Assembly (NCBI RefSeq): GCF_020217425.1
Contig: NZ_CP084090.1
Coordinates: 2,852,001-2,916,000 of the forward strand
DNA: 64,000 bases
From: Halomicrobium urmianum
GTDB lineage: Archaea; Halobacteriota; Halobacteria; Halobacteriales; Haloarculaceae
Direction of reading: 5' to 3'
Both the position numbers and the translations under genes were made by a program. This document shows, one piece after another, positions 11,810 to 45,647 of the stretch. Each line of letters opens with the position of its first letter. The stretch's first letter is position 1. A model generated the notes under the pieces. The model did no database searches. It saw only the letters and a program-made list of their open reading frames with translations, and was not told the DNA's origin.

Positions 11810-12655
11810 ATGAGCCGCGACGGCGGCGGCAACAGCTACCTCGCCGACGTATGGACCAACTACCGTCGGTGGACGCTGAAGGCCGTCCGGAACCCCTTCG
11901 TCATCACGGGGTCGCTCCTCCAGCCGATCATCTTCTTCGTGCTGTTCACGCAGGTGTTCGGCGGCATCGCCACGCAGGCGCTGGAGTCCAACGGCGCGGC
12001 GATCAGCTACGAGACGTACCTCGTGCCGGCCATCGCCGTCCAGGTGTCGCTGGCCGCGGCGGCGTCGTCCGGGATCGGCCTCGTCAACGACATCGAGGAG
12101 GGGATGTTCGACAAGGTCCTCGTGACGCCGATGCGCCGCTCCGCGGTCTTCCTCGGGAAGAGCCTCGCGGAGATCACCCGCATCGCCGCCCAGATCGTCA
12201 TCATTCTCGTCCTGGGCGCGCTGCTTGGCGCGCGCTACCAGACGGGCCTCGCCGGCATGCTCGGCATCGTCGCCGTCGGCGTCGTCTTCTCGCTGTGGTT
12301 CACCGCGTTCTCGAACATCGTCGCGCTGGTGACCCGCGACCAGGAGTCGACGATCATCGGCGCGAACATCCTCCAGTTCCCCCTGCTGTTCGTCTCCAGC
12401 GCCTTCCTCCCGCTGGACGCACTGCCCGGCTGGATCCAGGTCGTCGCGCGGTTCAACCCGATCACCTACGGCGTCGACGCCGCGCGGGCGCTGACGCTCG
12501 ACCGAGACGTGCTGACCGTGCTCGACGTCACCGCCTTCGGCGGCATCTGGGACACGCTCGTCCCCGCGCTGGCCGTCCTCCTCGCGCTTGACCTCGTACT
12601 CGGCGGCGCGGCAGTCGTCATGCTCAATCGGGCCGCTGGGACAGCAGTCGAGTGA
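11810..12655 (+). CDS. ABC-2 type permease (DrrB-type)
   Basis: 281 aa with six predicted membrane spans in the ABC-2 pattern: IITGSLLQPIIFFVLFTQVF, then VSLAAAASSGIGLV, AQIVIILVLGALLG, VAVGVVFSLWFTAF, ANILQFPLLFVSSAFLP and the last at ALAVLLALDLVLGGAAVVML. The conserved IEEGMFDKVLVTPMRRS coupling segment is present. It follows the ATPase gene by 25 nt, so the pair makes an exporter in the cell membrane. Confidence 0.92.
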   Translation: MSRDGGGNSYLADVWTNYRRWTLKAVRNPFVITGSLLQPIIFFVLFTQVFGGIATQALESNGAAISYETYLVPAIAVQVSLAAAASSGIGLVNDIEEGMFDKVLVTPMRRSAVFLGKSLAEITRIAAQIVIILVLGALLGARYQTGLAGMLGIVAVGVVFSLWFTAFSNIVALVTRDQESTIIGANILQFPLLFVSSAFLPLDALPGWIQVVARFNPITYGVDAARALTLDRDVLTVLDVTAFGGIWDTLVPALAVLLALDLVLGGAAVVMLNRAAGTAVE

Positions 12656-12678
12656 CGCTGGCCGCCGCCGGGACCGGC

Positions 12679-12734
12679 GTCCGGGCGAACTTCGTGAGGC
12701 CGGGCTCGGGAGACGAGCGAAGCGAGTCTGCCGG
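12679..12734 (+). repeat. 56-bp REP-like element, copy A
   Basis: A single copy of a 56-bp repeat that also occurs twice at 40.9-41.05 kb without any gap in alignment (about 79-84% identity by my count). It holds a constant GAGGCCGGGCT segment and a small palindrome, GACGAGCGAAGCGAGTC. It lies between the ABC permease and aroA, outside genes. Confidence 0.75.
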
Positions 12735-12784
12735 TGTAGAGTGATGCCGGTAGCCTCTTGACGAGCGGCGTCGACGGCCCGGAC

Positions 12785-14074
12785 ATGGACGCAGACGTCT
12801 CTCGCTCCACGGTTCGGGGGACCGCGCAGGCGCCCCCCTCGAAGAGCTACACGCACCGCGCCATCCTGGCGGCCGGCTACGCCGACGGCGCGCTGGTGCA
12901 CGATCCCCTCGTGAGCGCCGATACGAAGGCGACGATGCGCGCCGTCACGAAGTACGGCGGCAGCGTCGGCCTCCGCGACGACGGCGCGACGCTTTCCGTC
13001 GACGGGTTCGACGGCGACCCGGAGACCCCGGCCGACGTGATCGACTGCGCCAACAGCGGCACCACGATGCGACTCGTCACCGCCACGGGCGCGCTGCAGG
13101 ACGGCCTGACGGTGCTGACCGGCGACGACTCCCTGCGCTCCCGGCCGCAGGGACCGCTGCTGGACGCAATCGAGCAACTGGACGGCCGCGCGGAGAGCAC
13201 CCGCGCCAACGGCCAGGCGCCGCTGGTGGTCGGAGGTCCCGTCGAGGGCGGGGCGGTGTCCATCCCGGGCGACGTCTCCTCGCAGTACATCACGGCGCTG
13301 CTGATGGCCGGCGCGGTCACCGACGATGGCGTCGAGGTGGACCTGACGACGGAACTGAAGTCCGCGCCCTACGTCGATATCACGCTGGAGGTGCTGGAGG
13401 ACTTCGGCGTCGAGGCCGAGCGCACCGACGCGGGATTCGCCGTCCCCGGCGGCCAGTCCTACGAGCCCGTCGGCGGCGAGTACCACGTCCCCGGCGACTT
13501 CTCGTCGATCTCCTACCTGCTGGCCGCCGGCGTGCTGGCGGCCGAGGACGAACTGACGATCACCTCGGCGTACCCGAGCGCGCAGGGCGACACCGCCATC
13601 GTCGACGTCGTCGAGCGGATGGGCGGCGACGTCGACTGGGACCGCGAGGACGGCGTCATCACCGCCCGGCGGTCCGACCTCTCCGGCGTCGAGGTCAGCG
13701 TCGCCGACACGCCGGACCTCCTGCCGACCATCGCCGTGCTGGGGGCCGCCGCGGACGGCACGACCCGCATCGTCGACGCCGAACACGTCCGCTACAAGGA
13801 GACCGACCGCGTCAGCGCGATGGCCGAAGAACTGTCGGCGATGGGCGCCAGCGTCGAGGAGGAACAGGACGCACTGATCGTCCACGGCGGTGAGTCGGAG
13901 CTACGCGGTACCGCGGTCGACGGTCGCGCCGACCACCGCATCATCATGTCGCTGGCCGTCGCCGGACTGGTCGCCGACGGGACCACGACCGTCGAAGGCA
14001 TCGAGCACGTCGACGTCTCGTTCCCCGGGTTCTTCGACGTGCTGTACGATCTGGGAGCGACTGTCGACAGGTGA
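12785..14074 (+). CDS. aroA: 3-phosphoshikimate 1-carboxyvinyltransferase (EPSP synthase)
   Basis: 429 aa enzyme of the shikimate pathway that joins PEP to shikimate-3-phosphate. Conserved parts are the N-terminal [23 protein letters not shown], GDxSLRSRP, the [11 protein letters not shown] region and the late [10 protein letters not shown]. The start is ATG 12785 ([21 protein letters not shown]). Its 3' end forms part of a 14-bp inverted repeat and a direct repeat just downstream. aroC lies 3.5 kb away. Confidence 0.96.
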
Positions 14075-40477: not shown

Positions 40478-40816
40478 CTAGATTCGGCCGGCGCGGCTCG
40501 GATCGACGTCGATGGCGTCGACCGGACAGACGTCCACGCAGAGCATGCAGTCGATGCACTGGTCCTCGTGGGCCGGATCGGCCTTGATCTCGCTCTCCGG
40601 GTGACCGGGCGTGTCGACCCACTCGAAGACGTCCACGGGGCAGTCCTCCAGGCAGGCCCCGTCCGCGAGGCAGATGTCGAAGTCCACGGCGACGTGGGTT
40701 CCGTGGATGCCTTGCTTCTCCTCGATGGGATCCTCGCCGTCTGACGTCCACACGCGGTGGCCCTCGTGGCGGTCTACCTCCTCGTAGGTCTCCTCGAACT
40801 CGGGATCTATGGCCAT
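40478..40816 (-). CDS. Seven-iron type ferredoxin (zinc-ferredoxin-like)
   Basis: 112 aa. Two cluster motifs: CLADGACLEDCP (C-x5-C-x3-CP, fits 3Fe-4S or modified) and CIDCMLCVDVCP (C-x2-C-x2-C-x3-CP, 4Fe-4S). The N-terminal extension with EVDRHEGHRVW could hold zinc, as in archaeal zinc-ferredoxins. It lies ~195 bp before etfB on the same strand and may be its redox partner. Confidence 0.88.
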   Translation of the reverse strand: MAIDPEFEETYEEVDRHEGHRVWTSDGEDPIEEKQGIHGTHVAVDFDICLADGACLEDCPVDVFEWVDTPGHPESEIKADPAHEDQCIDCMLCVDVCPVDAIDVDPSRAGRI

Positions 40817-40913
40817 TGGTATCTTATCTCACTTATCGCTATTACTTAAGTTTTTGACCGTCGGGCGCTCCGTCGATCGGAACTCGGCCGGCGAGACTGA
40901 AGTGTCCGTCGCT

Positions 40914-40969
40914 GTCCAGCTGAACTGCGAGAGGCCGGGCTCGGAGGACGAACGGAGTGAGTCCTCCGG
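40914..40969 (+). repeat. 56-bp REP-like element, copy B
   Basis: Aligns without gaps to copy A (12679-12734) at about 79% identity. It contains a GACGAACGGAGTGAGTC palindrome flanked by GGAG/CTCC. It is the left half of a head-to-head pair with copy C, separated by a 26-bp spacer. Confidence 0.75.
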
Positions 40970-40995
40970 CGTGCGGCGGCAGATGCTGCCGCCAG

Positions 40996-41051
40996 CCGGT
41001 AGACTCGCTTCGCTCGTCTCTCAAGCCCGGCCTCGCTGCGTTCGGCTGGAC
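40996..41051 (-). repeat. 56-bp REP-like element, copy C
   Basis: Inverted partner of copy B, about 84% identical to copy A. With B it forms a ~138-bp structure whose outer arms pair and whose inside has three small hairpins, the central one GGCGGCAGATGCTGCCGCC (~40975-40993). Nothing else is seen in 40817-41069. Confidence 0.75.
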
Positions 41052-41069
41052 GGCGTTCGACTGCGAGGG

Positions 41070-41450
41070 TTACAGCGGACCGCCGCCCTGGCGGCCCTCC
41101 TCTTCGACGTCGCTCAGTTCGCGCTCGTCGTTGTACTCCCGCCCGCCGGGACTGCCGGCCTCGCCGGTCACCTCGTTGTACACCGCTTCCCGTACCTCCT
41201 GTGGCGACTCGAACTCCTCGTCGACGAGCCGGTCGAACACCGAGCCCAGCGACTCGGTCTCGTTCGGGAGGTCGATCGACTGGTCGCCGTACTCGACGGC
41301 CAGTTCCTCGCCCCGGACGGGGTACTTCATGTCGTCGAACATACTGGCGTCGCCGAGCATGTCCTCGACCGTCTCCGTCCGCTCGTGGCGACGCTCGTTG
41401 GCGCTCTCCTGGACGCGCTCCGGGTCGGGGTCGTAGGAGTCGTCGGGCAT
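41070..41450 (-). CDS. DUF5789-like acidic protein
   Basis: 126 aa soluble, acidic. Conserved-looking core: DDMKYPVRGEELAVEYGDQSIDLPNETESLGSVFDRL then EEFESPQEVREAVYNEVTGEAGSPGGREYNDERE, which recalls the haloarchaeal family DUF5789 (function unknown). The start is ATG 41448-41450 (MPDDSYDPDPERVQESANERRHE). Its 3' end abuts the REP-like pair. Confidence 0.75.
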   Translation of the reverse strand: MPDDSYDPDPERVQESANERRHERTETVEDMLGDASMFDDMKYPVRGEELAVEYGDQSIDLPNETESLGSVFDRLVDEEFESPQEVREAVYNEVTGEAGSPGGREYNDERELSDVEEEGRQGGGPL

Positions 41451-45549: not shown

Positions 45550-45626
45550 CTCGCTATCTCACGGGTCGCTCCTGCTCGCCGTAACGAGGCCTCCCTCCGG
45601 TCGGCCTCGCTATCTCACGGGTCGCT
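45550..45626 (+). repeat. 56-bp-period direct repeat in the gltX-idsA gap
   Basis: The 21-mer beginning CTCGCTATCTCACGGGTCGC occurs at 45550-45570 and 45606-45626; flanking AACGAGG and GCTC-CCGT segments also recur. It lies in 45426-45676, which holds no gene. Confidence 0.7.
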
Positions 45627-45647
45627 TCGCTCCCCGTTCGATTTGTC

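Follow-up and report, generated by a model that had tools for sequence, protein, structure and literature searches.

The window, meaning the entire 64-kb stretch of DNA that was analyzed, carries three complete copies of a short hairpin repeat, all of which lie between genes. One copy is located in a spacer (12656-12784) between a stop codon at 12653-12655 and the ATG of an aroA-like gene at 12785. The other two copies form an inverted pair, with 26 bp between them, in a spacer (40817-41069) that is bordered on one side by the start of a ferredoxin gene at 40816 (minus strand) and on the other by the end of a reverse-strand ORF at 41070. The relevant features are the following:

12679-12734, plus strand: complete 56-bp two-hairpin unit (hairpin A 12679-12705, hairpin B 12706-12734), preceded by GGC; R1 match of 74.5 bits
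40914-40969, plus strand: complete unit of the inverted pair (hairpin A 40914-40940, hairpin B 40941-40969); R1 match of 69.3 bits
40970-40995, no strand assigned: spacer of the pair, itself a short hairpin (GGCGGCAG at 40975-40982 and CTGCCGCC at 40986-40993), read from the sequence
40996-41051, minus strand: complete unit of the inverted pair (hairpin A 41051-41025, hairpin B 41024-40996); R1 match of 64.8 bits
45583-45680, minus strand: probable degenerate relative, in which a weak unit match is followed by tandem-GA hairpins whose stems differ

An initial annotation had placed three 56-bp copies at these coordinates and on these strands, aligned without gaps and located between genes, and each of these points was borne out, with the neighboring gene boundaries read at both loci. 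The R1 matches of the three copies have E values of at most 4e-12 each, and the segment at 45583-45642 was scored at 27.7 bits (E 4e-4). Both hairpins of the copy at 40914-40969 are present in the RNA fold, and the spacer hairpin at 40970-40995 is paired in the fold of the whole 41-kb region. The cloverleaf that had been proposed for the pair did not survive this analysis, because the pair, at minimum energy, folds as ssDNA into one extended, imperfect hairpin (-66.5 kcal/mol, z -9.0). Structurally, the basic unit is one 56-mer with its two hairpins and not the pair.

Structure and covariation of the unit

Each unit consists of two abutting, unlike hairpins of 27 and 29 nt, and its ends read GTCC...CGGC. 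Hairpin A (27 nt) follows the pattern GTCCNNNC-GA-RC-NNN-GY-GA-GNNNGGGC, and hairpin B (29 nt) follows TCGNNNGAC-GA-RC-NNN-GY-GA-GTCNNNCGG. In each loop, facing GA dinucleotides create a tandem G·A/A·G mismatch above the stem, which is followed by two base pairs and a triloop. Such tandem G·A/A·G arrangements form stable sheared pairs. The opposite strand would carry CT/TC mismatches instead, and thus one strand can be named as the structured strand. The GA positions rank among the most conserved columns of the alignment, and the middle pairs of the stems vary and compensate.

This compensation is extensive. In a first alignment, which had been selected partly by structure, 95.1% of cells were paired and 13 pairs had changed on both sides (0 of 500 shuffles), with 121 both-side-change cells compared to 38 +/- 6.5 in the shuffles. 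Slid controls gave 20-41% pairing. A further 34 units from a second species, represented by the genome G006, none of which had been used to build the model, yielded 95.2% paired cells, 14 pairs, and 132 both-side-change cells, versus 82%, 13, and 57 for the highest shuffles, with some lean toward structure remaining since these units were located with the model. Also, tandem-GA hairpins that have five or more outer pairs occur 87 times in 230 kb of repeat-bearing loci, compared to 4 times in shuffled sequence.

Several departures from the standard unit were encountered. Variant units of 51 bp have a B hairpin that lacks the GA motif, and others of 48 bp have shortened hairpins. At one locus (L015; C1:2935600, minus strand), the loop of hairpin B is inverted relative to its own stem, which suggests loop flipping at palindromes. 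Separately, about 105 nt are nearly identical at five loci on G000 C1 (870508, 1729148, 1830263, 2032242, and 2766551; L037, L039, L041, L050, and L044), where a branched multi-hairpin structure stands in place of hairpin A. Four of these five loci have further common flanks (CCAGAAAGCCCTCGG ... CCGAGGGCTTTCTGG). When six repeat-bearing loci were compared to the curated covariance models of Rfam, just one match was obtained, and it was sub-threshold. Assignment to a known RNA family was rejected on this basis.

Copy number, insertion sites, and copies within genes

A covariance model search of the whole genome uncovered 111 copies in 90 clusters, and a BLAST-type search gave 40 scored matches. 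A 26-base core pattern had 40 matches in the genome versus 0 for its reversed control, so the three window copies represent a family well above chance level. Models were used to search the genome, and about 0.4 Mb around the matches was read. The main contig (3.36 Mb, the chromosome) holds 107 of the 111 copies, and the other 0.9 Mb holds 4 (p 3e-7). There is no overall strand bias on the chromosome (52 plus versus 55 minus). Although the pair at 41 kb is indeed oriented head to head as had been described, inverted pairing is not the rule for the family, given that 19 adjacent pairs are on the same strand and only 2 are inverted. Twelve tandem junctions fall at exactly 57 bp, a period made up of the 56-nt unit and one additional base (C or T), and arrays can reach 6 units. 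Neighboring units are common to several loci in 35% of cases, versus 7% for random units. Several units may travel together, with shared ancestry of arrays being an alternative source of this pattern. Two stretches between close clusters were read for an autonomous element flanked by units and none was found, as one holds a hisF-like ORF and the other an ordinary-looking coding ORF. Identical 55-nt copies with identical immediate flanks reside on two replicons (G000 C1:2826869 and C2:235146), and these are probably part of a larger duplicated element.

Evidence for mobility comes from empty sites, which were sought within the genus as flanks joined without the insert. The copy at 12679-12734 is missing from the orthologous spacer of G005 and G006. 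A histidine kinase gene at 1337687 carries two units (114 bp) between CACGGC and GGCGACATC, and this site is uninterrupted in three paralogs from the same genome and in two G006 genes. Similarly, 57 bp present in the hydantoinase B gene and in the gene at 2223024 are absent from congeners. The CrtI-like gene contains a 48-bp variant that is missing in G001-G004, and unrelated inserts occupy that position in G005 and G006.

The strongest evidence is provided by a different palindrome with TAGTGGTGGTTGTAA ends and 78 bp between them, which is present in dozens of copies in G005 and G006 and was not found in the other five congeners. This palindrome is intergenic, in many cases begins with TGATAG and ends with CTATCA, and is possibly a bidirectional 3' end element. 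It is empty at L186-L195 and is filled elsewhere with one unit (L196, L197, and L202), three (L204), four (L200), or five (L201). The other arm is filled in the opposite orientation at L198, L199, and L203. Units enter at CCGGC^GTTCG, a sequence that is slightly degenerate in L199 and L200, and their orientation follows the arm, with the added length equal to n x 57 barring single-base differences. Across 71 clusters of the window's own genome, the target consensus is CGGC / G (92%), with a CGGC-like left flank and a G after the final C or T of the unit. Insertion takes place between (C)GGC on the 5' side and G on the 3' side, with fixed orientation and by the addition of whole units (57 bp, or the 51- and 48-bp variants). 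No target duplication is seen beyond the unit's own CGGC end. Because this end recreates the target, head-to-tail arrays with a 57-bp period result. 

The comparisons of empty and filled sites are between species with roughly 70-85% DNA identity rather than between near-identical strains. Loss instead of gain is possible at any single site, but the filled and empty 78-bp repeats make general loss unlikely. Overall, the unit is a real, structured, and targeted mobile repeat of haloarchaea.

Most copies lie between genes, in agreement with the intergenic location first reported, yet about 16 of the 90 clusters are inside genes. For 15 of these, a codon-usage scan based on a codon model trained only on this window detected coding signal in matching frames on the two sides, uninterrupted by a stop codon. 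The sixteenth, in the kinase gene at 1337687, failed the automatic rule for the right flank and was added on the basis of its frame and the empty paralogs. All 19 in-gene units have lengths divisible by three, compared to 63 of 92 elsewhere. In-frame copies occur in both orientations and add about 16-38 mostly hydrophilic residues. Among the products of the host genes are a PEBP, an amine-oxidase-family (CrtI-like) protein, an FAD-binding protein, a CobW GTPase, a beta-CASP nuclease, a hydantoinase B, and, at C1:2584084, an isocitrate/isopropylmalate dehydrogenase family protein, and alignment reveals the peptide as extra sequence relative to solved homologs. Location inside genes had been named at the outset as grounds for refutation and does apply to these clusters, but such in-frame, stop-free insertions alter the REP-like interpretation without overturning it.

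All 11 sense copies encode GVxxSEAxxGSxDERSExxG-like peptides in an acidic sense frame and a single codon phase (nine phases were computed and two were read from the peptides). A strong reading-frame bias, at (1/3)^11, was considered and rejected. GGCG is already in that phase 65% of the time in coding DNA, and the chance of 11 of 11 is 0.009. No clear in-frame copies were found among 22 G006 clusters or among 32 scorable exact-consensus loci, and these copies may be a feature of diverged units or of this genome.

Distribution and possible mechanisms of spread

The unit is present in 52 of 59 Halobacteriales genomes, including its own, and two congeners have 91-101 matches each. Among 197 genomes sampled across the phylum, 31 had a match, all of them Halobacteriales, and genomes outside this order yielded 0 matches. 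A search of 84,980 species with the exact IUPAC pattern recovered 33 stretches, all but one of which are haloarchaeal (Natronomonas, Halosimplex, Halorhabdus, Halorientalis, Halapricum, Haloarchaeobius, HArc-gm2, and uncultured Halobacteriales). The sole exception (L144) is at positions 2862-2917 of a 5.5-kb contig from a Salinivenus MAG, and may reflect either erroneous binning of the contig or a transfer into a halophilic bacterium. Spread by viruses was also considered, and was rejected because the exact pattern had 0 matches among IMG/VR viral contigs.

The best explanation, to which a probability of about 0.66 is assigned, is that the repeat is a non-coding, non-autonomous 57-bp haloarchaeal element that targets CGGC^G and has a structured ssDNA strand that is copied to new sites. 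The fixed orientation, the retained 5' target, and the lack of duplication give the process a resemblance to single-strand transposition, although a host process is also possible. The structured strand would act as single-stranded DNA, probably during replication, and the hairpin strand would be copied into a new CGGC^G site. Copying might be performed by a single-strand enzyme other than a RAYT or any detectable Y1 protein, or it might occur through host template switching on short CGGC homology. In the latter case, a nascent strand ending in CGGC would switch to an array and back, which would yield whole units with identical boundaries. The conserved GA loops would probably serve as the recognition feature. 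Copies would be mainly selfish, with a possible secondary role as hairpins at the 3' ends of transcripts.

A more specific formulation, offered only tentatively, does away with a transposase altogether. Template switching during replication, from one CGGC^G site to another, would carry one to several whole units of a hairpin array each time into intergenic DNA, other repeats, and, in frame, conserved genes throughout the haloarchaea.

Known enzymes were evaluated as well. The units might be moved in trans by ordinary IS200/IS605 TnpA (Y1) proteins, as proposed for PATEs. These enzymes likewise leave a short target unduplicated and insert on its 3' side, and they match the repeat in insertion logic, with fixed orientation, a preserved 5' target, and hairpins on one strand. 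Furthermore, Y1 genes exist in this genome. However, none of its five Y1 loci carries tandem-GA hairpins. Among 17 near-complete genomes without a Y1 match, copy numbers range from 0 to 44, with 19 or more in five of them; a Y1 match is entirely lacking in several genomes that carry 19-48 copies. Copy number and Y1 number are not correlated (Spearman 0.17, p 0.27), and G043 and G044 have Y1 genes but no units. IS200/IS605 was rejected as the carrier on the grounds of the missing common hairpins and the missing correlation with Y1 count, and movement by its TnpA is rather unlikely.

The units are short, palindromic, abundant, and mostly intergenic, which fits the initial proposal of a REP/BIME system with a dedicated RAYT. 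The portion of this proposal that stands is the existence of a REP-like, mostly intergenic family in a haloarchaeon. The RAYT portion fails, since the RAYT model NF047646 gave a match above its cut-off in none of 195 Halobacteriales genomes, compared to 1 of 14 control genomes. In addition, the two Y1 proteins of this genome that were scanned are ordinary IS200 TnpA, the unit has two hairpins and no GTAG tag, and its pairs are predominantly head to tail instead of inverted. A RAYT-driven system is largely refuted and can be considered highly improbable.

Alternatively, the repeats could be functional RNA or DNA structures, such as 3' end hairpins, terminators, or protein-binding sites, that are maintained by selection and have little mobility. 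The deep covariation and near-invariant GA loops fit this possibility, as do a mild excess between convergent genes (17 of 69 versus 4 of 45, p 0.047), the proximity of copies to upstream gene ends, and a related class followed by a T run, for example right after a stop codon at 3134167. This explanation is nevertheless unlikely, given that orthologous sites differ in whether they hold units, copies run in frame through genes in either orientation, other repeats serve as insertion sites, arrays can reach 6 units, and the units favor neither strand strongly with respect to codirectional genes (23 versus 14). Related tandem-GA double hairpins followed by CTTTTT occur on G000 C1 at 713444, 2337665, 3134167, 295900, 2779858, and 1718402, and these are candidate haloarchaeal transcription terminators. 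Hairpin-dependent single-strand copying into CGGC^G is favored for the 57-bp repeat.

Comparison with known elements

The closest parallel comes from Haloquadratum walsbyi, whose SMR-A and SMR-B elements are about 80-110 bp long, have terminal inverted repeats, lack a transposase, and are mobilized in an enigmatic manner (PMC3119063). Like these SMRs, the repeat is short, creates no target duplication, and inserts into palindromes of other repeats (PMC3119063). Unlike SMRs, which were compared by description only, its 57-bp unit has two unlike hairpins and no terminal inverted repeat, and it forms head-to-tail arrays and in-frame copies. SMRs are the most similar described elements. PATEs and IS200/IS605 elements also have near-terminal hairpins, a short target, and no duplication (PMC3119063), but the repeat has no hairpins in common with the Y1 loci of this genome and its abundance is independent of Y1 genes.

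REPs likewise are short hairpin repeats of high copy number that are mostly intergenic and sometimes in genes, according to the available portion of a REP survey (PMC3733652). That portion describes CGTC-tagged REPs without a dedicated transposase and names only bacterial phyla. The repeat differs from the REPs described there by its two GA-loop hairpins per unit, its direct tandem arrays in place of inverted dimers, and its archaeal host. Its consensus is without GTAG, and CGTC arises only across the junction (a flanking C followed by GTC, with GTC located inside stem A). Rickettsia palindromic elements (RPEs), which are about 150 bp in length, recurrently insert in frame into unrelated protein genes (PMC10969869). 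The in-frame insertions in unrelated ORFs, with every length divisible by three, are comparable, although the units are smaller (48-57 bp) and most copies are intergenic.

No description of the 57-bp repeat was found in the open-access PMC literature, and an earlier one in subscription papers, which were outside the scope of the search, is possible. If the preferred interpretation is correct, it would account for unusual hydrophilic insertions in enzymes of haloarchaea, which could mislead annotation and structural work. Also, the spread of REP-like repeats without a RAYT and the absorption by proteins of recurrent in-frame selfish insertions would be opened to direct tests. The 57-bp repeat is a new haloarchaeal element of the REP/RPE/SMR kind, and it would constitute a haloarchaea-wide counterpart of REP and RPE elements that has a defined target, both empty and filled copies in one genome, and no known transposase.
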